From assembly GCA_002951815.1 (NCBI GenBank), contig CP019454.1, positions 3,235,837 to 3,299,836 of the forward strand: a DNA stretch of 64,000 nucleotides, given 5' to 3'. This DNA is from Sulfobacillus thermotolerans (lineage in GTDB: Bacteria; Bacillota; Sulfobacillia; Sulfobacillales; Sulfobacillaceae). The notes beneath the pieces are model-generated. The model saw only the letters and a program-made list of their open reading frames with translations. It was not told where the DNA came from and ran no database searches. The translations under genes and the position numbers were made by a program. Positions 48,075 through 59,903 of this stretch are shown piece after piece. Numbering within the stretch: position 1 is the first letter of the stretch; the number at the start of each line of letters is the position of its first letter.

Positions 48075-51000
48075 TTATGGTTGTTGCATCAGAACTGGGT
48101 ACACCACAGTCGGCCCGTTAGTCGTTAGCGATACCTTTGTGTTGACCACAAAGGACTGGGATGGCGCGACTGTCCACGTTCCACTGCTGTTTTCGGTAGC
48201 AATCGCCACGTATGCGGAATCCGTTGTAACGCTGTTACCGTCATACGCACCGCTGTTTACAGCCATTTCTACCGTGCTACCGCTATAGGGGCTCGTAATC
48301 GTGACACCCACGTAATCGGTGCTCGCTGCGGCACCTGTACCTGGAGTTTCGTCAAGAGCCACGTAATATGCGCTACCAGCAACTTCCCACACAGCTACAG
48401 TTGCTGTAGTGACAACGCCTGACGAATTGGAAATTGTCACACTAGGCTCAATAACTGGGGTGAGCACAGTAAATTCACCCGTAGCTTGATTATAGGTTGC
48501 AAAGTCTGTAACACTCGCAGCGTAGTCTGCGGTTACAGCTTTACCGTTTACCGTTACTGCTGCAGTGTCACCACTTACGTTTCCAGCGCCCGACTCATTA
48601 GCTGCTGACATGGTCGAAGATGCCAATGGTTGCACATCGACTGTAAAGCTGACTGGCGCCACGCTCGGATCGCTCGTGTCTGTTACGGTGACGGTTGCTG
48701 TGCCGGCTGTGCCACCCACTACTTCAAACGAAACCGTCTCAGCCCCACTAATAGACAAGGTCGTTCCCGACTGAATAACTCCAGAATTTGTCGCAAGCAC
48801 AACATCGCCGTTGGAAGTAGACACGTTCAGATTGTCGGTTGCCTCCGAAACACCAGCTTGGATGGCATTTTCTTCAGTAATGGTCGCAGTAGCACTGGAC
48901 AATCCCGGTAACGTCAGTGTCGTGCCTGAGTAACTGTTCGCGGTGGGTCCAACAACAGAAAGCCCCAGTTCCGCCACAGTGGCTGCAGGAGAGGTAACAG
49001 TAGCCGTTACCGCACTAGTCGGCTCGGTTAAGCTAGGCGAAATGGTCGCTGACACGGTGTAGGTTCCAGCACTCGTAGCCGCATCAACGGTGACAGACGC
49101 AGCGCCACTGGCATTGGTCAATTCCGTCAAAGTCGTAGCTCCGTTGGCAAACGTTCCACTACCGGTTATGGTAAAGGTAACAACCGCGTTAGCATCAGCC
49201 ACAGCATTGCCTACGCTGTCCTCGACTTGGGCCGTGTAGGTCGCGCTCTTACCTTCCGCAATGCTCTCCGTACCGGTAACGGCCAACTGATATGCAGGGC
49301 CCGTTACAAACATGTAGCTGGTTGACGCAGTAGTCGATAACGGCGCATTTGTGGCGACGTTTGCCACGTCCCCACTTTCTGCAGTGAGGGTCAACGTTGC
49401 CGGAGAGGCCTGTGTTGTCGTATTGACAACAGTAAATGTCGCCGTTGTATCATTGGTAGCTACCGTAACTGCAACGGTATCTCCTGTTTGAGGGATGAGT
49501 GTTGCGGAAGTGCCATTTACGACATATGCCATTCCGGTCGTAGCATTGTCTGTTAGATAGAAAGTTTCTGCTGACGGTGCGGTTACGGCCTGACCAGCCG
49601 CGTCCTCAAGCGTTACCGTGTACGTCGTTTCCGTCGTGCCTGAAGCCAGCGTAAAAGAGCTTGATGAGCTTACAGTGTAAGTCGTCGCGGCGCTTAGCGT
49701 TCCTGTGGTTGAGGAGACACCCAATTGAGCGGCTTGGCCTACGCCAACAGCTTCAATGGTGGTCGTACCCGTCGCGAGATTCTGGGCGGACGCCATTATG
49801 CCAATGCTACCCGCCACATCTGGTTCACTGTATACAGTAAACGAAGCTGGAGCCCCGTCTCCAACGAATTCAGTCGTTGAGGACGCCCCTCCCGAGAGAG
49901 TCCCGGCCCCTACAACATCAGCCGTTACCGCATAAAAGGTAGATGTGACGCCCGTTGGCAAGGGGTTGCCCGCTTGGTCGCCTAGGGTAATCGTGACGGT
50001 GTCTGATGTCGAGGTATTGTTAGGAACGGTGGAGGTTGCTGCACTAACCAACAACTCCGTAGCAACCGGGGACACGGTTGTCACCGTAACAGAACCGTAG
50101 CTCACAACACTTGCAGTCGATTCACCGGAATTCGCCACTAATCCACTTGTTGTGATGCTTTCGGAACCAATCAATGAAGTGGATGCTGTCACCGTAACGG
50201 CTGCTGTTCCATTCGTGATGGTTAACGTCGTCGTGTCTGACCCATTCGCGAAGGTCATTCCCGACGGCGCTGTCAAGGTAACGGTTCCATTGAAATTCCC
50301 CACTGTATTGCCGTTGTTGTCCACAACCATAGCAGTAATGGTATCGCTAGCCGCGCCGTCAGCTACCAAACTGGAGGACGTTGCTGAGAGTTTAACCGCT
50401 GCTGCCTGACCAAAAGCATCAAACGTAGCCTTGGAGTACTCGGAAAAGGCCGCGGTTTGAGGAGCATTTAAGTCCTTGGCATACAACACCGCGTGGTAAT
50501 CACCAGCTAGCGCGGCGGTAACTTGGAAGGTTGGAGAGCTCTGGTAGTCTCCGCTAGCAAACCAGTTGCCATCCGGGCTTTGAATCCACAACTGGTATAC
50601 CGGATCCGTCAAATTCTTGGAGCTGGCGGTAAACGTAAGGGTTGTGCCGGGCGCCACATTGGTCAATGTCGGAGCCGTCAAGGTTGCACTCGAATCTACG
50701 TTGACGAATTGATTGCTGTTGGTGCCTTCAGAGTTGGCCGGAATCGCTTGGCCCTTGTCTTTAGCATACACAACCACTTCGTAACTTCCTTGTTTTAGTG
50801 GGGGCAAGGAGAAGGAATTGCTGGTTGACCAGCTGGTTGAATGCCAGTTTCCATTGACGCCCTCATACCAGAACTGGTATAGAGGTGTACCCGTTCCACT
50901 CTGAACCGCAGTGGCCGTGAAGCTGACGGTGTTTCCAACAGCTACGGTGCCTTGTTCAGAGCTCAGAGTTACACTAACAACAGCCGGAGCAGTTGCTGCA

Positions 51001-51089
51001 AAGGCGCTGGCAGCAGGAATCATAGACATTAACAACATGGCTGATCCCAGCGTTAAGCTACCGGCTTTTCTCGAAATATTCTTTGCCAA
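48075..51089 (-). CDS. Large secreted Ig-like surface protein (S-layer or adhesin type)
   Basis: 1004 residues from a TTG with GGAGGG nine bases upstream. A signal peptide (SLTLGSAMLLMSMIPAASAFA) is followed by two Y-x-W modules (YQFWYEGVNGNWHSTS and YQLWIQSPDGNWFASG, each ending VVYAKD- or VLYAKD-like) shared with the protein at 27925-28974. Then come at least four Big_1/invasin-like domains rich in Thr/Val/Ala (for example GAASDTITAMVVDNNGNTVG and GKSATYTAQVEDSVGNAVAD). There is no sortase motif, SLH domain or membrane anchor at the C-terminus. Very low Lys/Arg content suits acid-exposed surface proteins. An S-layer or sheath protein is the best guess. Confidence 0.82.
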   Translation of the reverse strand: MAKNISRKAGSLTLGSAMLLMSMIPAASAFAATAPAVVSVTLSSEQGTVAVGNTVSFTATAVQSGTGTPLYQFWYEGVNGNWHSTSWSTSNSFSLPPLKQGSYEVVVYAKDKGQAIPANSEGTNSNQFVNVDSSATLTAPTLTNVAPGTTLTFTASSKNLTDPVYQLWIQSPDGNWFASGDYQSSPTFQVTAALAGDYHAVLYAKDLNAPQTAAFSEYSKATFDAFGQAAAVKLSATSSSLVADGAASDTITAMVVDNNGNTVGNFNGTVTLTAPSGMTFANGSDTTTLTITNGTAAVTVTASTSLIGSESITTSGLVANSGESTASVVSYGSVTVTTVSPVATELLVSAATSTVPNNTSTSDTVTITLGDQAGNPLPTGVTSTFYAVTADVVGAGTLSGGASSTTEFVGDGAPASFTVYSEPDVAGSIGIMASAQNLATGTTTIEAVGVGQAAQLGVSSTTGTLSAATTYTVSSSSSFTLASGTTETTYTVTLEDAAGQAVTAPSAETFYLTDNATTGMAYVVNGTSATLIPQTGDTVAVTVATNDTTATFTVVNTTTQASPATLTLTAESGDVANVATNAPLSTTASTSYMFVTGPAYQLAVTGTESIAEGKSATYTAQVEDSVGNAVADANAVVTFTITGSGTFANGATTLTELTNASGAASVTVDAATSAGTYTVSATISPSLTEPTSAVTATVTSPAATVAELGLSVVGPTANSYSGTTLTLPGLSSATATITEENAIQAGVSEATDNLNVSTSNGDVVLATNSGVIQSGTTLSISGAETVSFEVVGGTAGTATVTVTDTSDPSVAPVSFTVDVQPLASSTMSAANESGAGNVSGDTAAVTVNGKAVTADYAASVTDFATYNQATGEFTVLTPVIEPSVTISNSSGVVTTATVAVWEVAGSAYYVALDETPGTGAAASTDYVGVTITSPYSGSTVEMAVNSGAYDGNSVTTDSAYVAIATENSSGTWTVAPSQSFVVNTKVSLTTNGPTVVYPVLMQQP

Positions 51090-51760: not shown

Positions 51761-54001
51761 TTAAGGGCTTGGGCGTGTCCGAGCATGAAAGACCCAAGGC
51801 TTTGGTACGTCGTGCGCTTTCAGCCGCTTCCCATCTGAGATCAACGTAAATGTCACACCCAGCGACAGAGGAATTTCTTTGATTGTAAAGGGCCCTAAGG
51901 CTTGTGGAGGATTGGCCCAGGCATGAATTTTATGCTGCAAGGCATCAATCTCAAGGCCTAAGAGTGTTTGCATAAGATGAAAAGGCGCGGCGGACGCCCA
52001 TGCTTGCGGTGCACACGCCTCAGGGTAAGGTACAGGAGCCACACCCTGTTCCCCGGCAAACAGTTCGGGCAGTCGGTACCAGGGAAAATGCTCAGCGGCT
52101 TGCATGAGCGCCAGAGCTAGGGTTTCAGATTCCTTAGCTGCTCCGGCCTTTAGCAGTCCCGCAGCAATAAGACTTGTGTCATGCGGCCAGACGCTTCCGC
52201 GGTGATAGCTGTAGGGATCATAGGCACTCTGACCGGCCGCCAAGGTCCGAATTCCCCATCCCGAGAACAGGTCGGGAGCGAGTAAGCGCTGTGCCACCGC
52301 ACGCCTCTTGGTGCGTGGTACTATGCCGGCCCATAGGCATTGTCCGGGATCAGAGGTCACCGCATCCAGCAACCGGCCATTCCCGTCCACCGCCAACCCA
52401 TAAAACAGCTGATCTGGCAGCCAAAAGAGCGCATCAAATTGCCTTTGCAGTTTTTTCGCTCTTTTCTCCAAGTCGCGTGCCCAGTCATCTTGTCCCTGGA
52501 CGTGGTAATAATCGGCCATGGCCCGAAAGGCGCGGTATACATAGCCTTGGACCTCCGCCACTGCGAGTGGCGGGGACGCGTGCTCACCATCCGCAAAAAC
52601 CATCGAATCCGCGGAGTCTTTCCATGACTGCACCGCAAGACCTTGGGCGGAGCGCGGGGTAAAACTTAGAAGTCCTAAACGGTTGCGGTCTTGAGCCCGC
52701 AGCAAATAATCCAGCGCCGCTTGGGCCGCAGGCTTCATCGTATTCATCAGCGCATCGTCACCCGTACGCCGCCAGGTTTCTACAAGGAGAATCAAAAAAA
52801 GCGGAGTGACGTCCACAGAGCCGTAATAACGCGCAAACGGCACGTCATGAGTCCGGGCCATCTCCCCGAACCGCACTTCATGCACCATTTTCCCAAGCTC
52901 TTCCTCCCGTTCGGGGTCATCTTGGTGTCCTTGCCATGCCGCGAGCGTATGAAGAGTGTGATACGCGTAAGAGGGATTCCACGCCAACATTTGATAGGAC
53001 GCAATCACCGCATCACGGCCAAAGAATGTGCCAAACCAGGGAATGCCCGCCATGGGCACCAGGCCCTGACCATAATCGGTCGCCAGCATCTGCATATCAC
53101 TGCCAGCCCGGCTCATAACGTGTTGCCAGAGTTCGCGCTCAAAAGAAAACTGAGGAAAAGGGTCCGCACCCTGCTTTCGGCCCGTGGCAATTTCCGGCAC
53201 GGGATTGTGCCACGTGGTTTTCAGCACAATCTCTCCAGAAACCTCTTGCCCATCAATCATCCATTCCCACTGGCCTGCAGCATTGTTCTGGGCGGCGCGT
53301 GTTGATGCCATAGTCACCTGCCGGGCGATGCCGTCGCGTCCTTCATAGCGATACTGCGCTTGATAAGCATCTTGGTCCACCGTTTTATGCCCCACATGCC
53401 GCGGATCAGATCCGCGCAGTTCGAAGATATCGGTAAAATCTGCCGCAAAAGCCAAGGAGAGCCGCCACGGCTCGGGCGCGCCATAATGCTGCCATGCCCA
53501 GCGGTCTTCCATGCCCTCCGGGTAAAGCTGCCATGTTCGTTCGATTACCCGCGTCATACCCGCGTGTTGAAATACATACCGGGCGCGGAGTACATCCGTT
53601 GTCACGGTCATAGCCAAAGGCGCGGGCACTTCTCCACTGATGCGCCACTGGTAGGTTGAAACCATGCGGGTATCATAGAGATAGACCCCTTGGCGCAAGG
53701 AGGATGCTTCAATGCGCCCGGCCGTAGACAGCACCGCAAAGGCCGCCCCGGCCTTTAAAACCGGCTCCCCGGGATTGGTCCGCGGCGTCTGATAAAGAGC
53801 CGGCACGCCCGTCGATTCTCTGACCTTGAGGACGGGCCGTACGCGTTCGCAGAGCACCTCTTCCCCATGAATCCGGCAAATCAGCATCTCGGCCAAGCGC
53901 TCCCCCGCTTGCATCCCGTCATGCTCCACCGTGGTTAAAAAGCCCGCGTCAAAAGCCCCTGCTTCGCGCCCAAAACCCACAATCGACAATTGACGAGGCA
54001 C
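51761..54001 (-). CDS. Glycogen-debranching-type glycosidase, fused to LacI C-terminus
   Basis: The frame encodes 746 residues. About 1-65 are the end of a LacI regulator (RQLSIVGFGREAG, LTTVEHDGMQAGERLAEMLI, LKVRESTG). At about 80 a GDE_N-like beta domain begins (LKAGAAFAVLSTAGRIEASS, GVYLYDTRMVSTYQW), then an (alpha/alpha)6 catalytic domain from about 300: GIPWFGTFFGRDAVIASYQM, SWKDSADSM, YSYHRGSVWPHDTSLIAAGL, features of amylo-alpha-1,6-glucosidase/GH63-like enzymes. No Met or SD lies between the parts, so the enzyme is probably made as a C-terminal domain of the regulator. No signal peptide: cytoplasmic, acting on imported glucans. Confidence 0.8.
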   Translation of the reverse strand: MPRQLSIVGFGREAGAFDAGFLTTVEHDGMQAGERLAEMLICRIHGEEVLCERVRPVLKVRESTGVPALYQTPRTNPGEPVLKAGAAFAVLSTAGRIEASSLRQGVYLYDTRMVSTYQWRISGEVPAPLAMTVTTDVLRARYVFQHAGMTRVIERTWQLYPEGMEDRWAWQHYGAPEPWRLSLAFAADFTDIFELRGSDPRHVGHKTVDQDAYQAQYRYEGRDGIARQVTMASTRAAQNNAAGQWEWMIDGQEVSGEIVLKTTWHNPVPEIATGRKQGADPFPQFSFERELWQHVMSRAGSDMQMLATDYGQGLVPMAGIPWFGTFFGRDAVIASYQMLAWNPSYAYHTLHTLAAWQGHQDDPEREEELGKMVHEVRFGEMARTHDVPFARYYGSVDVTPLFLILLVETWRRTGDDALMNTMKPAAQAALDYLLRAQDRNRLGLLSFTPRSAQGLAVQSWKDSADSMVFADGEHASPPLAVAEVQGYVYRAFRAMADYYHVQGQDDWARDLEKRAKKLQRQFDALFWLPDQLFYGLAVDGNGRLLDAVTSDPGQCLWAGIVPRTKRRAVAQRLLAPDLFSGWGIRTLAAGQSAYDPYSYHRGSVWPHDTSLIAAGLLKAGAAKESETLALALMQAAEHFPWYRLPELFAGEQGVAPVPYPEACAPQAWASAAPFHLMQTLLGLEIDALQHKIHAWANPPQALGPFTIKEIPLSLGVTFTLISDGKRLKAHDVPKPWVFHARTRPSP

Positions 54002-54780
54002 ATGAATGCCAATGTCCCTAAAGAGACGGCCGTATTGACGGCAAAAATTGCGGAGGGCCGACTGGGCGATGTCAACAGCTCATACGTCCTTTCATATCCG
54101 CTGCTTTGAGTCATCGGTCCTTCGGTAATCCAAGGAGCCAATCCGCGCGCCACCATCGCTTCGGTATAGCCTTGGCGTCTTTGCTGAGCCGTTTGACAGC
54201 TTCCTGGTCCTGCTAAGTGCACAATCCGCCGGTGCCCGAGATCTAACAAATGCTCTGTCGCCAACCAAGCCCCCTGGCGATTGTCTACGTTGTACCAAAC
54301 GTACGGCGGTTCTCCGCCATAGACGACACAAGGCACCTGCTCGTCTTCCAAAAACCGCACCGCTGCCTCCATATCGGCGTCATAGATTAACACCATACCA
54401 TCCACCCGACGGGATCGTGCAACCCCCTCCAAATACGACACAAGATCGTGCTGCGAGGGTTCGGGAGCCAATACGATTAAGTGATACCCCGCGCGTTGAC
54501 ACGCGCGGATGAGGCCCGACATCACGAACGTCGGCAGGGTCCCCGTGCTGGCCACCGATGGCGGAACCACCACGCCAATCGTCTCGGATTGGCCCCGCAC
54601 TAAAAATCGCCCCTGCGCATTGGCCCGGTAATGCAACGCTTCCGCAGCACGGCGGACACGCTCGGCGGTTTCTGGCGAAATATTGCCCCGGTTATTCAAA
54701 ACATAGGAAACGGTTGCGGTTGACACCCCAGCTAATTTCGCCACATCGCTAATGCGGGCGGGGCGATTTCTGTGATCCAA
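53935..54780 (-). pseudogene. LacI-family regulator, frameshifted; N-terminal part of a LacI-glycosidase fusion
   Basis: From a TTG with GAGGTG seven bases upstream. Residues 8-60 are the LacI HTH and hinge (ISDVAKLAGVSTATVSYVLN), then the sugar-binding domain (GVVVPPSVA, GMVLIYDAD, SAIFAVNTAVSLGTL). After this the frame drifts to a non-LacI tail. In the other frame the missing part continues (RLFRDIGIHVPRQLSIVGF). Inserting 19 nt at 54010-54027 restores exact family alignment and joins the whole 51761-54780 region into one frame of 1012 residues. It probably regulates the divergent uptake genes. As written it lacks the C-terminal subdomain and is likely inactive, unless the deletion is an assembly error. 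Confidence 0.8.
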
Positions 54781-55004
54781 ATATTTTCACCTCAGCACTT
54801 AATCGTTTCACTTAAACGATTGAATTATATGGAATATCGTGCCATAATACTAGAAGTTTTCTGTATTGCATACATAATCACGCAGAAAACAATCGCATTG
54901 GCAGGATTCTTTCGCCATCATACTGCCTTTCGGGTCATAGAATGACCAGGCGCCGCCGTTGCTTCTGACAACGCGCTGCCTACCAAAGGATAGGAGGATG
55001 CCCC
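54781..55004. promoter_or_regulatory. Divergent regulatory region of the glucan locus
   Basis: AATCGTTT at 54801-54808 and AAACGATT at 54814-54821 form an 8-bp inverted repeat with CG in each arm, the style of LacI-family operators, lying next to the regulator's ribosome binding site. A second inverted repeat, GTTTTCTG at 54856-54863 and CAGAAAAC at 54883-54890, lies towards the transport genes. Confidence 0.6.
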
Positions 55005-56282
55005 GTGAACATGCCAAGACAGGTTCGCCGCCGCACTGTGGCCGTCATGAGCAGCACAGCCTTGCTACTCACCCTCGCCGGTTGCGGATCTAGTGCCACA
55101 GGCGCCAGCGGTCCCCATAACGTCACCATCGTCTTTGCCACCCAAGGGCTCGGAACCGAAGCCCAAGCTACACAAGCCGCTGTCAACGCGTTTGAAAAAC
55201 TTCATCCCCATATTCATGTCCAAATTGAAACCTTGTCGGCCTCCTCGAACGACGCTTATCAAACCCTTATTACCGATTTAACGTCAGGATCGGGTACGCC
55301 CGACGTTATCACCGCCGATGTTATTTGGCCCGCCACATTTGCCGCCGCCAAATGGATTATGCCTCTAAACCAATTTCATCCCAATACCAGCACATTTTAT
55401 CAAGGAATGGTCAAGTCAGGAGAGTATCACGGCAAACTCTATGCCATGCCTTGGTTTATTAATGTGGAAGGCTTGTATTACCGCACCGATCTCGTCAAAA
55501 CTCCCCCTAAAACTTTTGCTCAGCTCACCGCTGATGCCCGGGCCGCTATGAAGAAAAACCCCAAATTGATTGGGCTGGCCTTTGAGGGGAACAAATATGA
55601 AGGAGCCGTCACCGTCTTTCAAGACATTTCAGGCGGCTTTGGTGGGTCATTTCTTAACGCTCAAGGCAAGCCGGTCTTGAATTCTCCTCAAAATATCAAG
55701 GCCTTGACGTGGCTCGACAACGCCATAAAGACAGGATTGTCGCCCACCGCAGTGACCGGGTGGGAAGAGGGAAATGTTCAGCAAGCTTTTCTCTCGGGTG
55801 ATGCCGTCTTTGCCACCAACTGGCCCTATCTCTATCCCTTAGCGGAAGCATCAGGATCTGCTGTGAAAAACGAAGTGGCTTTTGTCCCCACGCCTATAGA
55901 TGGAGGGCAACCTACAGCCTCATTAGGCGGCGATGACCTCGTCATCAACAAAAATACCAAGTATCCCAAACAGGCCTGGGAACTGGTGAAATATCTCACC
56001 TCCGCTAAAACGATGACAGCGCGGGCGCTCATCTCAGGCGATCCTCCCGCCCGGACCGATGCTTACACCCCGAGCTTATTGGCCAAAGCCCCGTGGTTCA
56101 AACAAGAAGAGGTGGTCTATGCCGACGCGACCCCACGTCCCGTCACCCCTTTGTATCCCCAAATCTCGGCCCAGATTCAAGAAGCCCTATCGGCCACCTA
56201 TTCCGGGCAAGAAACTCCCACCCAGGCGCTCAATCAAGCCCAAAAGGCTGTGGAAGCGATTGTGAGCGGCCATGGCAGCTAA
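55005..56282 (+). CDS. ABC transporter sugar-binding lipoprotein (family 1)
   Basis: 425 residues from a GTG with AGGAGG seven bases upstream. A lipoprotein signal ends in the lipobox LAGC (about residue 26). The mature protein has the family-1 solute-binding pattern: NVTIVFATQGLGTEAQATQA, DVITADVIWPATFAAAKWI, PWFINVEGLYYRTDL and GDDLVINKNTKYPKQAWELV. It captures an oligosaccharide, probably maltodextrin- or trehalose-like given the neighbouring glucosidases, and passes it to the two permeases that follow. The gene end overlaps the first permease start by 11 bases. No ATPase gene is present; as in many sugar systems, a shared MsmK-type ATPase elsewhere would be used. Confidence 0.92.
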   Translation: MNMPRQVRRRTVAVMSSTALLLTLAGCGSSATGASGPHNVTIVFATQGLGTEAQATQAAVNAFEKLHPHIHVQIETLSASSNDAYQTLITDLTSGSGTPDVITADVIWPATFAAAKWIMPLNQFHPNTSTFYQGMVKSGEYHGKLYAMPWFINVEGLYYRTDLVKTPPKTFAQLTADARAAMKKNPKLIGLAFEGNKYEGAVTVFQDISGGFGGSFLNAQGKPVLNSPQNIKALTWLDNAIKTGLSPTAVTGWEEGNVQQAFLSGDAVFATNWPYLYPLAEASGSAVKNEVAFVPTPIDGGQPTASLGGDDLVINKNTKYPKQAWELVKYLTSAKTMTARALISGDPPARTDAYTPSLLAKAPWFKQEEVVYADATPRPVTPLYPQISAQIQEALSATYSGQETPTQALNQAQKAVEAIVSGHGS

Positions 56283-57225
56283 GACGCAACTAGCTCCTGC
56301 ACTAGGCACAGGCTCTCCCCAGCCAAAGCGGCGCCGTTCCTATATGGCTGCCCGTTCGCGGGTTGGGTATCTTTTGGTCTTACCGGCAGTGGCGGCCTTA
56401 GCCGCCATTGCCATCTATCCTCTTGTATACAATTTGGTGTTGTCGACCCGGTTTGATGTGCTGACGGAGCCGGGCACCGGCCACTTTACCGGGTTAGCCA
56501 ACTATAAACAGATGGTCACTGACCCTAATTTCTGGGGGGACTTAGGTCGGACGGGGATTTTTATGGTCGTCTCCGTCACCCTGGAATTTGTCGCGGGCCT
56601 CATTTTGGCTCTCATTGTCCACCGGCAGTTTAAGGCGCGTGGCTTGGTCCGCGCATCGATTCTTATCCCCTGGGCCATCCCAACCGCGGTATCTGCCCTG
56701 CTTTGGAAAATGTTCTTTGATATCCGCTCAGGCTTTGTCGACTTCGCCCTCAAGGCTTTGCACCTGCCCGGTTCTCAACTCGTGTGGTTCAACTCGCCGA
56801 CGCTAGCTTGGGTACCCATTATTCTGAGCGATATGTGGAAGAACACACCTTTCATTGCGCTATTGCTGCTGGCAGGCTTGCAAACCATTCCGCAAGAGAT
56901 CTATGAGAGTGCACGCATCGATGGCGCCAACAGCTGGCAAGCGTTCTGGGCGATCACGCTTCCCTTGCTGCGCCCAGCCATTATGGTCGCTCTCATTTTC
57001 CGCACCTTAAGCGCTATGCTCGTCTTCGACACGATTTTTGTGATGACAGGCGGCGGACCCGGCCAAAGCACCGAAGTCGTAGCTTATTACGATTGGTACA
57101 AATATATGGTGTCCTTGAACTTCGGCTTTGGGGCAGCGGTGGCGGTCGCGATTACGGTTCTCGCGTTAATATTGGCCGCCATATATGTGCGCCTGTTGCG
57201 CCAAAGAGGAGGGTTTATGGCATGA
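56272..57225 (+). CDS. ABC sugar permease, MalF/UgpA type
   Basis: 317 residues with six helices. RVGYLLVLPAVAALAAIAIY is helix 1. The EAA coupling loop is YESARIDGANSWQAFWAITL, followed by PLLRPAIMVALIFR, and the late segment MTGGGPGQSTEVVAYYDWY is typical of the MalF-like group. It overlaps the binding-protein gene by 11 bases and the next permease by ATGA, so the three form one operon. It forms the heteromeric channel with the next gene product. Confidence 0.93.
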   Translation: MAAKTQLAPALGTGSPQPKRRRSYMAARSRVGYLLVLPAVAALAAIAIYPLVYNLVLSTRFDVLTEPGTGHFTGLANYKQMVTDPNFWGDLGRTGIFMVVSVTLEFVAGLILALIVHRQFKARGLVRASILIPWAIPTAVSALLWKMFFDIRSGFVDFALKALHLPGSQLVWFNSPTLAWVPIILSDMWKNTPFIALLLLAGLQTIPQEIYESARIDGANSWQAFWAITLPLLRPAIMVALIFRTLSAMLVFDTIFVMTGGGPGQSTEVVAYYDWYKYMVSLNFGFGAAVAVAITVLALILAAIYVRLLRQRGGFMA

Positions 57226-58049
57226 AATCACGCCTAGGCCGGACAGGATTCAATGCATTGGTGGCGATTATTATCCTCTACTCGCTCTTTCCCTTCTATT
57301 GGGTCTTCAAGTCTTCGCTCGAATCCTCATTTGCGCTGAACCGACAAACATCGAGCATATGGCCCACACAGTGGACCTTTGTGCACTATGAAGCCATATT
57401 TGCGGTCGAAAACTTTCTCAGGCCGCTCTTAAACAGCATGTTCGTCGCAGGCATGGCAACGTTGTTATCGGTCGTGCTGGGATCGATGGCCGCTTATGGG
57501 CTCTCACGCATGCCGATTAAAGGAAAAGTCCCCATTCTTGGTTTTATTCTGCTCGTCTCGTTCTTTCCCCAAATCGCTATGGTCGGTCCCTTATTCCTGG
57601 TGTTCCGCCATCTGCATTGGCTCAACACCTATCAGAGCTTGATTATCCCCTATCTCATTTTGTCGTTGCCCATCACCACGTGGATTTTGACGGCATTTTT
57701 CAGCCAAATCCCGGCAGACATTGAAGAAGCGGCCATGGTGGACGGCGCTACCATCACCCAAACCATCACCCGCGTATTTGCACCGATTGCCATGCCTGGC
57801 ATCTTTACAGCCGCCATTTTAGGCTTTCTTCTCTCGTGGAATGACTTTCTCTTTGCGCTCTCGTTCATTCAGACGCCTAATATGGATACCGTTCCGCTAG
57901 CCCTCGTCAATTTCCGCAACGCCTATTACGTGCATTATGGGCAAATTTATGCAGGCGTCGTGATTGCATCTCTGCCCATTGCCTTGATTGTTTTGTTCTT
58001 GCAAAAGCGGATTGAATCGGGGCTCACCGCAGGCAGTGTGAAGGGTTAG
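57222..58049 (+). CDS. ABC sugar permease, MalG/UgpE type
   Basis: 275 residues with six helices. The start at 57222 overlaps the stop of the first permease by ATGA, and GGAGGG lies eight bases upstream; a longer open frame back to 57093 only shadows the first permease. SLFPFYWVFKSSLESSFALN is the typical opening, AAYGLSRMPIKGK the cytoplasmic loop, and EEAAMVDGATITQTITRVFA the EAA motif. The end reads ALIVLFLQKRIESGLTAGSVKG, the MalG-type tail that reaches the ATPase. It pairs with the preceding permease. Confidence 0.94.
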   Translation: MKSRLGRTGFNALVAIIILYSLFPFYWVFKSSLESSFALNRQTSSIWPTQWTFVHYEAIFAVENFLRPLLNSMFVAGMATLLSVVLGSMAAYGLSRMPIKGKVPILGFILLVSFFPQIAMVGPLFLVFRHLHWLNTYQSLIIPYLILSLPITTWILTAFFSQIPADIEEAAMVDGATITQTITRVFAPIAMPGIFTAAILGFLLSWNDFLFALSFIQTPNMDTVPLALVNFRNAYYVHYGQIYAGVVIASLPIALIVLFLQKRIESGLTAGSVKG

Positions 58050-58115: not shown

Positions 58116-59903
58116 ATGAAACCCTTTTACGCCCTGTTGGCCAATGGCCTTACGACGGCTCTCGCCGGTCCCACGGGGGCCGTAGACTGGTGGCCGGTTC
58201 CAAGATTTGATGGACCCACCATCTTTAGCCGCCTGCTCGATCATCACGCTGGGGGCTATCTGAGTCTGGAGCCCGAAGGGTATACCACCGTCACGCAGCG
58301 CTACCGTCCCGAAGGGCTGTTTCTGGAAACGCATTTCGAGTGTCCCGGTGGCTTCGCCACCATAACTACGGGTCTAGAAGTGGGACGCAATGCGCTGTGG
58401 CTGACCGCGAATAGTACCGTTCCGCTGGTCTTGACGTGCCGACCCAGCTTTAATTATGGCGTCGTCAGGCCCTCTTTTGTGCCACTGCCCCACGGCATGC
58501 GCTTCATTAATCCTGTAGGGCCTGGCCAAGCCGCCCTCATTATCCAAGGTCCGGCCGAGCTGATGAGCCGCATGGACCAATGGCGATGTGGCCCTGGACG
58601 CCTTACGGTGGTCTTCCGGGTATTGATGGAAGCCAAACCCGACTGGCGTTGGCTCTCGGCCCCAGTTCCAACCGATGCAGACCGCATTTGGGTCAAATCT
58701 TCTGCCTTTTGGGCGCTGCCCACGGCGGCGCAAGATGCCGAAGAGCCTATTAGACGCAGCTTGCAAATCATTAAAGGCTTGACGTTTCGTCCCACCGGCG
58801 CCCCGGTAGCGGCAGCCACGACCTCTTTACCGGAAGCTCCCGGCGAGTCCCGACAGTGGGACTACCGCTACGTATGGGTTCGCGACAGCGCCTATAGCGG
58901 CGAATCCTTGCTGTTAACAGGAAACGTCGTAGAGGCCAAGCGTATTACCGAATTTTTGCTCAACAGTGTGCTCATCACCGGCCGGGTCTACCCCACGCCG
59001 TTCTTGCGGGTAGACGGCACCGTTCCGGAACGCGAGCACGATCTGTTATGGCTCAGGGGCTATGAACAGACCCGCCCGGCGCGGGCCGGCAATGGAGCGA
59101 TTTCTCAACGACAGTTGGATTTAGTCGGCAGTGTCTTATGGCTTGTCTACCGCATTTGGCAAGAGACCCACGATGACCTATTTGTCCAGTCCTACTGGTG
59201 GGCGATTACGGCTCTCGCGGAGTGGGCTCAAAGAACGTGGTACCAAGACGATGCCTCCTTATGGGAATACCGTACGATCCGCGGCCAGCATACCCATTCG
59301 CGCATGATGAACTGGCTAGGGCTCACCACCGCAGCAGCAATGGCACGCCATGCTATGCACGATGACATCGACGCCAAGCGGTGGCAGGACAGCGCCGAAA
59401 AAATCGCCACCGCTCTATGGAAAGAGGCACAGCAAGCGGGCTCGTTCTTACCGCGTTCCACAGGTGGCATTCCCGACGCGGCGCTTCTCACCTTGCCCCT
59501 TTATGGCTTCGTCTCCGTGCATAACCCATACTTTATCAATACATTAAAAACCATTGAGAGCACACTCGTTGACAATGGGCTCGTCTACCGATACCGTGCC
59601 GATGACTTAGGCAAGGCGCGCTTTCCATTTTTGTTGGTTGGGTTTTGGTATGCCCGCGTGCTGTTGCGGCAAGGGCGGCACGAGGAGGCCCAGCACGTGA
59701 TTGAGCGGCACTTGGCACAAGCCACGCCCTTAGGCTTGTACGGCGAACATGCTGATGAAAAAACGGGAACCGTACGGGGAAATTTTCCCCAGCTCTTCTC
59801 CCATAGTGCGTTGGTGACTACCCTGATGGAGCAAAAGTTTCTCGCCCAAGGGCGACCCTTACCCGAATATGCCTTATTGACCGCAACAAAACTTATGGGC
59901 TAG
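58116..59903 (+). CDS. GH15 family glycosidase (glucoamylase/trehalase type)
   Basis: 595 residues, cytoplasmic. An N-terminal beta-sandwich (about 1-215, opening ALLANGLTTALAGPTGAVDW) is followed by the (alpha/alpha)6 barrel: RQWDYRYVWVRDSAYSGESL, then ASLWEYRTIRG with the general acid Glu and SRMMNWLGL, and GLYGEHADEKTGTVRGNFPQ with the second Glu before FSHSALV. All GH15 landmarks are kept. The family includes glucoamylases, trehalases and glucodextranases; which applies is not clear. It lies 66 bases after the permease genes and likely hydrolyses the imported sugar. The ribosome binding site (AAAGGCAGG) is distant and weak. Confidence 0.9.
   Translation: MKPFYALLANGLTTALAGPTGAVDWWPVPRFDGPTIFSRLLDHHAGGYLSLEPEGYTTVTQRYRPEGLFLETHFECPGGFATITTGLEVGRNALWLTANSTVPLVLTCRPSFNYGVVRPSFVPLPHGMRFINPVGPGQAALIIQGPAELMSRMDQWRCGPGRLTVVFRVLMEAKPDWRWLSAPVPTDADRIWVKSSAFWALPTAAQDAEEPIRRSLQIIKGLTFRPTGAPVAAATTSLPEAPGESRQWDYRYVWVRDSAYSGESLLLTGNVVEAKRITEFLLNSVLITGRVYPTPFLRVDGTVPEREHDLLWLRGYEQTRPARAGNGAISQRQLDLVGSVLWLVYRIWQETHDDLFVQSYWWAITALAEWAQRTWYQDDASLWEYRTIRGQHTHSRMMNWLGLTTAAAMARHAMHDDIDAKRWQDSAEKIATALWKEAQQAGSFLPRSTGGIPDAALLTLPLYGFVSVHNPYFINTLKTIESTLVDNGLVYRYRADDLGKARFPFLLVGFWYARVLLRQGRHEEAQHVIERHLAQATPLGLYGEHADEKTGTVRGNFPQLFSHSALVTTLMEQKFLAQGRPLPEYALLTATKLMG

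Follow-up and report, generated by a model that had tools for sequence, protein, structure and literature searches.

LacI-GDE, in which a LacI-type repressor continues into a GDE-type glycosidase, is on the evidence of sequence comparison a genuine and conserved family present in dozens of genomes. Its gene is an intact single frame in relatives of Sulfobacillus thermotolerans and is broken in the strain from which the analysed DNA came. We put at roughly 0.78 the probability that the product of the intact gene is a single polypeptide, autoregulated and enzymatically active, that unites a LacI-family repressor with a GDE-type amylo-alpha-1,6-glucosidase.

The fused gene and its broken copy

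The window, the whole stretch of S. thermotolerans DNA that was analysed (64,000 nucleotides), is part of a single 3,317,203-bp contig. Its copy of the gene comprises the following features.

53935..54780, minus strand: LacI half (HTH, hinge and most of the sugar-binding domain), an ORF of 281 aa with a TTG start at 54780
51761..54001, minus strand: enzyme half (remainder of LacI, linker, GDE_N_bis and (alpha/alpha)6 glucosidase barrel), one open frame
54016..54018, minus strand: 19-nt deletion (frameshift) in the LacI domain, from DNA alignment with relatives L002 and L003
53765..53823, minus strand: junction, LacI C-terminus (RESTG) and short linker, from a 52-sequence alignment
53255..53758, minus strand: GDE_N_bis domain (Pfam PF14742, 1.2e-22)
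51989..52990, minus strand: MGH1-like/GDE_C glucosidase barrel (Pfam PF22422, 7e-17; PF06202, 1.2e-8), with a 7vma-like fold in the model of an orthologue

The LacI half matched the Pfam domains LacI (7e-17), Peripla_BP_1 (4e-15) and Peripla_BP_3 (1e-10), and its TTG start is also present in the nearest relative. Its frame ends at 53935 because 19 nt, located at about 54017 by DNA alignment, are absent relative to the two closest relatives. Outside this deletion both halves remain open. The open frame of the enzyme half has 772 codons, with a GTG at 54001 and its end at 51761, and within it the end of LacI (VRESTG, about 53806–53823) continues in frame and without a stop into GDE_N_bis and the GDE/MGH1-like barrel. 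The first-pass annotation had described this read-through, which is kept in 20 complete orthologues and one partial orthologue. It had also proposed that correcting one frameshift yields a 1012-residue protein; the interruption is present in the sequence as a 19-nt deletion instead of a one-base slip, and the uninterrupted protein would be nearer 1,018 residues.

The fused gene occurs in 17 of 42 Sulfobacillales genomes, as 20 complete genes and a further one truncated where its contig stops. These are single open frames of about 995–1064 codons that run through both halves in the order LacI HTH, sugar-binding domain, short linker, GDE_N_bis and (alpha/alpha)6 glucosidase. Sixteen of the proteins, aligned end to end, share a mean column identity of 57%, and each half contains many invariant columns. 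In all seven fusions tested, LacI and GDE Pfam domains lay above cut-off on one ORF, a check that the first-pass annotation had proposed for homologues; PF00356, PF00532 and PF13377 passed in 7/7, and PF14742, PF22422 and PF06202 were found in the tested fusions and in the window enzyme half. An alignment-based scan of named contigs recovered 29 fused loci (26 complete), including those of Sulfobacillus sp. and S. benefaciens and partly from the same genomes as the 42-genome set. A single-protein query with the window enzyme half gave no match against the named contigs. Three artefacts were rejected: a chance open frame, by the read-through kept in the orthologues of 17 genomes, and both a pseudo-fusion by assembly and a programmed frameshift, since the relatives are in frame without any shift.

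The fused proteins carry the HTH and the periplasmic-binding-protein-like sensor of LacI/GalR regulators, and their GDE half belongs to the 7vma-type family of GDE_N_bis plus (alpha/alpha)6 barrel. An AlphaFold2 model of the L031 fusion, built from 52 aligned sequences of the window and the loci, reached a pLDDT of 90.5 and a pTM of 0.77 (a single-sequence input gave a pLDDT of only 34.5), and its predicted linker is short and mostly confident. In structure searches the N-terminal 330 residues of the model matched CelR, RbsR and PurR, and residues 345–1002 matched 7vma (Z 53.6, rmsd 2.3, 616 aligned); the 7vma sequence match had an E of 2.5e-153 at 31% identity. The 7vma structure is that of the amylo-alpha-1,6-glucosidase of Thermococcus gammatolerans STB12, which debranches maltodextrin at alpha-1,6 bonds (PMC9142091). 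The fused enzyme half is very probably an active alpha-1,6-glucosidase, as predicted from this kinship; the GDE subfamily is broad, and the substrate of the fusion could differ from that of 7vma.

Because of the 19-nt deletion, the window strain does not make LacI-GDE as a single chain; the gene is broken in its regulator half. The deletion would have split it into a truncated regulator and an enzyme part that might arise only by re-initiation, which is conceivable given an in-frame ATG at 53914, 3' of the LacI stop at 53935, with a weak GGTGGAG-like sequence upstream. Since both halves are otherwise open, the break is either recent or an assembly fault. We think it unlikely that the frameshift is a sequencing or assembly error and that the strain carries an intact fusion. 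Errors of 454 sequencing are typically of one or two bases in runs, whereas the gap here is 19 nt long and is not a homopolymer slip. Retention of the operator-like sites in the window, together with the openness of both halves, speaks for an error, as does the sequencing of the S. thermotolerans Kr1 genome by Roche 454 and Sanger methods (PMC6803676). Far less probable still is that two proteins arise from one frame through an internal start or re-initiation near 53808, a GTG start that the first-pass annotation had named as grounds for giving up the fusion. In all members a native LacI end (VRxST-like) is followed by a linker of about 16–20 residues and then by the GDE start (VLKxGxxF-like). 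The window and several relatives do have GTG codons within the junction, and in the broken window copy candidate re-initiation codons follow the LacI stop. However, the junctions of four members (L033, L034, L044 and L047) lack ATG, GTG and TTG altogether and so hold no internal start, and no start is conserved among the remainder.

Operator-like sites and neighbouring genes

The region between the broken gene and its divergent neighbours, and those neighbours themselves, were assigned as follows.

54788..54793, minus strand: RBS GAGGTG of the TTG start, from sequence; same motif in L002
54801..54808: AATCGTTT, the first of two tandem operator-like cores; fused genes show upstream enrichment of AANCGNTT
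54814..54821: AAACGATT, the second operator-like core, at a distance of 13 bp from the first; same AANCGNTT enrichment
54824..54829, minus strand: likely -10 TATAAT of the regulator-enzyme gene, adjoining the operators
54820..54848, plus strand: importer promoter-like TTGAAT-17-CATAAT (1 found against 0.5 expected, weak alone)
55005..56282, plus strand: solute-binding protein of an ABC sugar importer, divergent (Pfam SBP_bac_1, 5e-45)
56272..57225, plus strand: ABC importer permease, an ORF in conserved neighbour cluster c2
57093..58049, plus strand: second ABC importer permease, an ORF in conserved neighbour cluster c3, true start probably about 57220
58116..59903, plus strand: GH15 glucoamylase/trehalase-like enzyme (Pfam GH15, 2e-51; NCBIfam TreH1, 525 bits, cut-off 820)

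The operator-like core AANCGNTT occurred at 5.4 per kb in the 250 bases upstream of the fused genes and at 0.33 per kb elsewhere in the same loci, a 16-fold enrichment, and at least one core lay upstream in 26 of 27 fused loci. Paired cores exactly 13 bp apart were present in ten fused loci and in the window. The sites are palindromic, with a central CG, and lie near the gene's own promoter. No operator core was found upstream of L058. The TATAATTYAATCG context of the TATAAT is common to relatives in the genus, and the -35 of the importer promoter-like sequence overlaps the second core. In loci where the importer follows the fused gene codirectionally, a single promoter would serve both. Dimeric binding to the upstream sites with autorepression is, we infer, highly probable.

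The first-pass annotation had noted divergent sugar-uptake and GH15 genes, and we found these as described: a solute-binding protein, two permease genes (56272–58049), whose family assignment draws on sequence and neighbourhood and is to be read as probable, and the GH15 gene. The GH15 product is closest to the archaeal trehalase TreH1, at a score below the family cut-off, so the pathway sugar could be trehalose or another alpha-glucoside. Importer genes adjoin the fused gene in most loci with enough flank, and GH15 glucodextranase-like, MalK-like and GH13 genes lie near some of them. Three loci have operons downstream of the fusion with extra genes (L056:16330-19872, L041:16589-18835 and L037:9940 onward), which encode a separate second (alpha/alpha)6 enzyme of 740–750 aa, a GH127/GH88-like protein of 413 aa, or a sulfatase. 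On its other side in the window (48075–51089, minus strand), the fusion gene adjoins a gene for a 1004-aa secreted-looking protein with a signal-peptide-like start, Y_Y_Y and Big_1/invasin-D3-like Ig repeats, which is probably a surface or adhesion protein.

Constraint and origin of the fusion

Purifying selection acts on all domains of the fused gene. Nearly all close pairs gave dN/dS estimates of about 0.02–0.2 for the HTH, sensor, beta domain and barrel; the exception, the HTH of L052/L058, is an estimate from 19 codons where a contig ends. Over the 18 codons of the linker, dN/dS was 0.02–0.08 in six of the eight computable pairs and 0.38 and 0.50 in the other two. In the barrel, seven acidic positions of the active site (in GRD, HE, GSVD, WKDS, EVQ, WPHD and LPEL) were invariant in all 29 rows where present; they include the Asp of WKDS and the Glu of LPEL, which we take, by analogy to YgjK, to act as acid and base.

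The sensor pocket was less uniform. We mapped by alignment the positions equivalent to Arg197 and Asp274 (E. coli LacI numbering), presumably effector contacts given the residue roles in LacI and PurR. In place of these two residues the S. benefaciens group has Tyr and Glu, the Actinomycetota group Trp and Gly, and L043/L048 Ile and Gly; in the window/L031/L032 group and in L040 only the Asp274 equivalent is replaced, and canonical pocket residues were retained in about half of the fusions. Thus, residues related to catalysis are retained throughout and the classical sugar contacts are not. With these contacts gone in several lineages, sensing in the textbook manner may fail there; their loss could reflect a changed inducer, an enzyme domain that has taken over sensing, or weaker control by the repressor.

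Separate, neighbouring lacI and gde genes followed by an importer were found in Alicyclobacillus, Tumebacillus, Alkalicoccus and several Sulfobacillaceae, with operator-like sites at the same position in most of these unfused loci. One Sulfobacillus genome (G001) carries both the fused gene L031 and an unfused neighbouring lacI-gde pair (L133). The side-by-side arrangement is likely the ancestral layout, and the fusion would most likely have arisen by loss of the stop between the two genes. Separate genes with a stop and a start between them had been named at the outset as evidence against the fusion; such genes do exist, in more distant relatives only, where they point to its ancestry and leave the fusion standing.

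Among 55 sampled Bacillota genomes outside Sulfobacillales that have the enzyme, no fused frame as long as those of Sulfobacillales was found. The fused gene is also present in metagenome-assembled genomes (MAGs) of Actinomycetota (L042, L044, L049 and L053) and of an Alicyclobacillales-like bacterium (L046). In an rpoB tree the L042, L049 and L053 hosts grouped with Actinomycetota, and the L046 host with Alicyclobacillus and Tumebacillus, so the fused unit has probably moved between acid-dwelling lineages by horizontal transfer among acid-mine bacteria, with the caveat that MAG contigs may be misbinned (the contigs of L046 and L049 are 216 kb and 84 kb). In a tree of GDE sequences 26 fused genes formed one clade (100*), with L058 elsewhere, and a single fused clade was rejected (P = 0.021, AU test); GDE proteins of the unfused lacI-gde operons formed a clade of their own. 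In the LacI tree, in contrast, all fused rows fell on one side of one branch (93). Given this disagreement, either one or two fusion events are possible. L052 and L058 are closely related fused genes in two Bacillota MAGs, and the enzyme half of L058, which groups with the unfused operons, may represent an independent second fusion.

Mode of action and known systems

In the reading that we prefer, that of an autoregulated single chain with an active enzyme, the dimeric LacI half would bind the upstream sites and repress its own gene and the importer, and an imported alpha-glucan fragment would lift the repression. In the cytosol, the attached enzyme would cleave alpha-1,6-linked glucose off these fragments and, if inducer and substrate are the same, the fused molecule would shut off its own signal. 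Judging from relatives and neighbouring genes, there is about an even chance that the inducer is an imported alpha-glucan fragment. The further step, a self-resetting switch in which the enzyme consumes the regulator's inducer, as the first-pass annotation had proposed, is plausible but tentative, and somewhat more doubtful than the inducer itself.

A plainer history, in which two neighbours were joined, each half acts on its own and their connection does no more for regulation than fix the stoichiometry, is possible and in our judgement rather unlikely. It accords with the unfused lacI-gde-importer loci and the common position of their operator-like sites. Against it stand long conservation without splitting, occurrence in three lineages, low dN/dS and a conserved linker size, which suggest that the link is useful and do not thereby prove coupling. 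We regard as improbable, though worth keeping in view, a trigger-enzyme arrangement in which the glucosidase domain is the real sensor of the LacI protein: substrate or product in its active site would alter DNA binding, the ancestral LacI pocket would be decaying and becoming dispensable, and catalysis would reset the switch intramolecularly. The invariant active-site acids, the replaced Arg197/Asp274 equivalents and the short, mostly confident linker are consistent with such an arrangement, but nothing comparable is known in this family, the canonical pocket residues persist in about half of the fusions, and an altered pocket may simply bind another sugar.

LacI repressors are textbook sugar switches, and classically the inducer is removed by an enzyme with a gene of its own. 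In LacI-GDE, repressor and enzyme share one chain and have stayed together across dozens of genomes in three lineages. This permits a direct test of whether a genetic switch behaves differently when its sensor is tied to an enzyme that uses up the signal; the protein is also a ready-made part for self-limiting circuits. We found no description of a LacI repressor fused to a glycoside hydrolase in the open-access literature searched, and the domain combination of this conserved family is apparently undescribed.

The fusion shares with LacI/GalR repressors such as PurR, RbsR, CelR and LacI the HTH, the hinge, the two-lobed sugar-binding domain and operator-like palindromes with a central CG at its own promoter. 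Unlike them, it carries a whole glycosidase after the native LacI C-terminus and has lost effector contacts in several lineages. With the 7vma-type enzyme of T. gammatolerans STB12 it has in common the beta domain, the (alpha/alpha)6 barrel and the conserved active-site acids, whereas the fused GDE is covalently attached to a DNA-binding repressor. The unfused lacI-gde-importer operons of Alicyclobacillus, Tumebacillus and Sulfobacillaceae (L082, L062 and L021–L023) resemble it in gene order, neighbours and, in most, the operator-like site; they differ in the stop and start between the genes and in their separate GDE clade. Single chains that combine DNA binding with an enzyme or enzyme-like fold are known in BirA, PutA, NadR and MocR/GabR, but to our knowledge a LacI-type repressor is not linked to a glycoside hydrolase in any of them, and their halves are unrelated to those described here. 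The lac operon limits itself indirectly, through destruction of allolactose by beta-galactosidase; compared with it, the new element in LacI-GDE is the covalent link.
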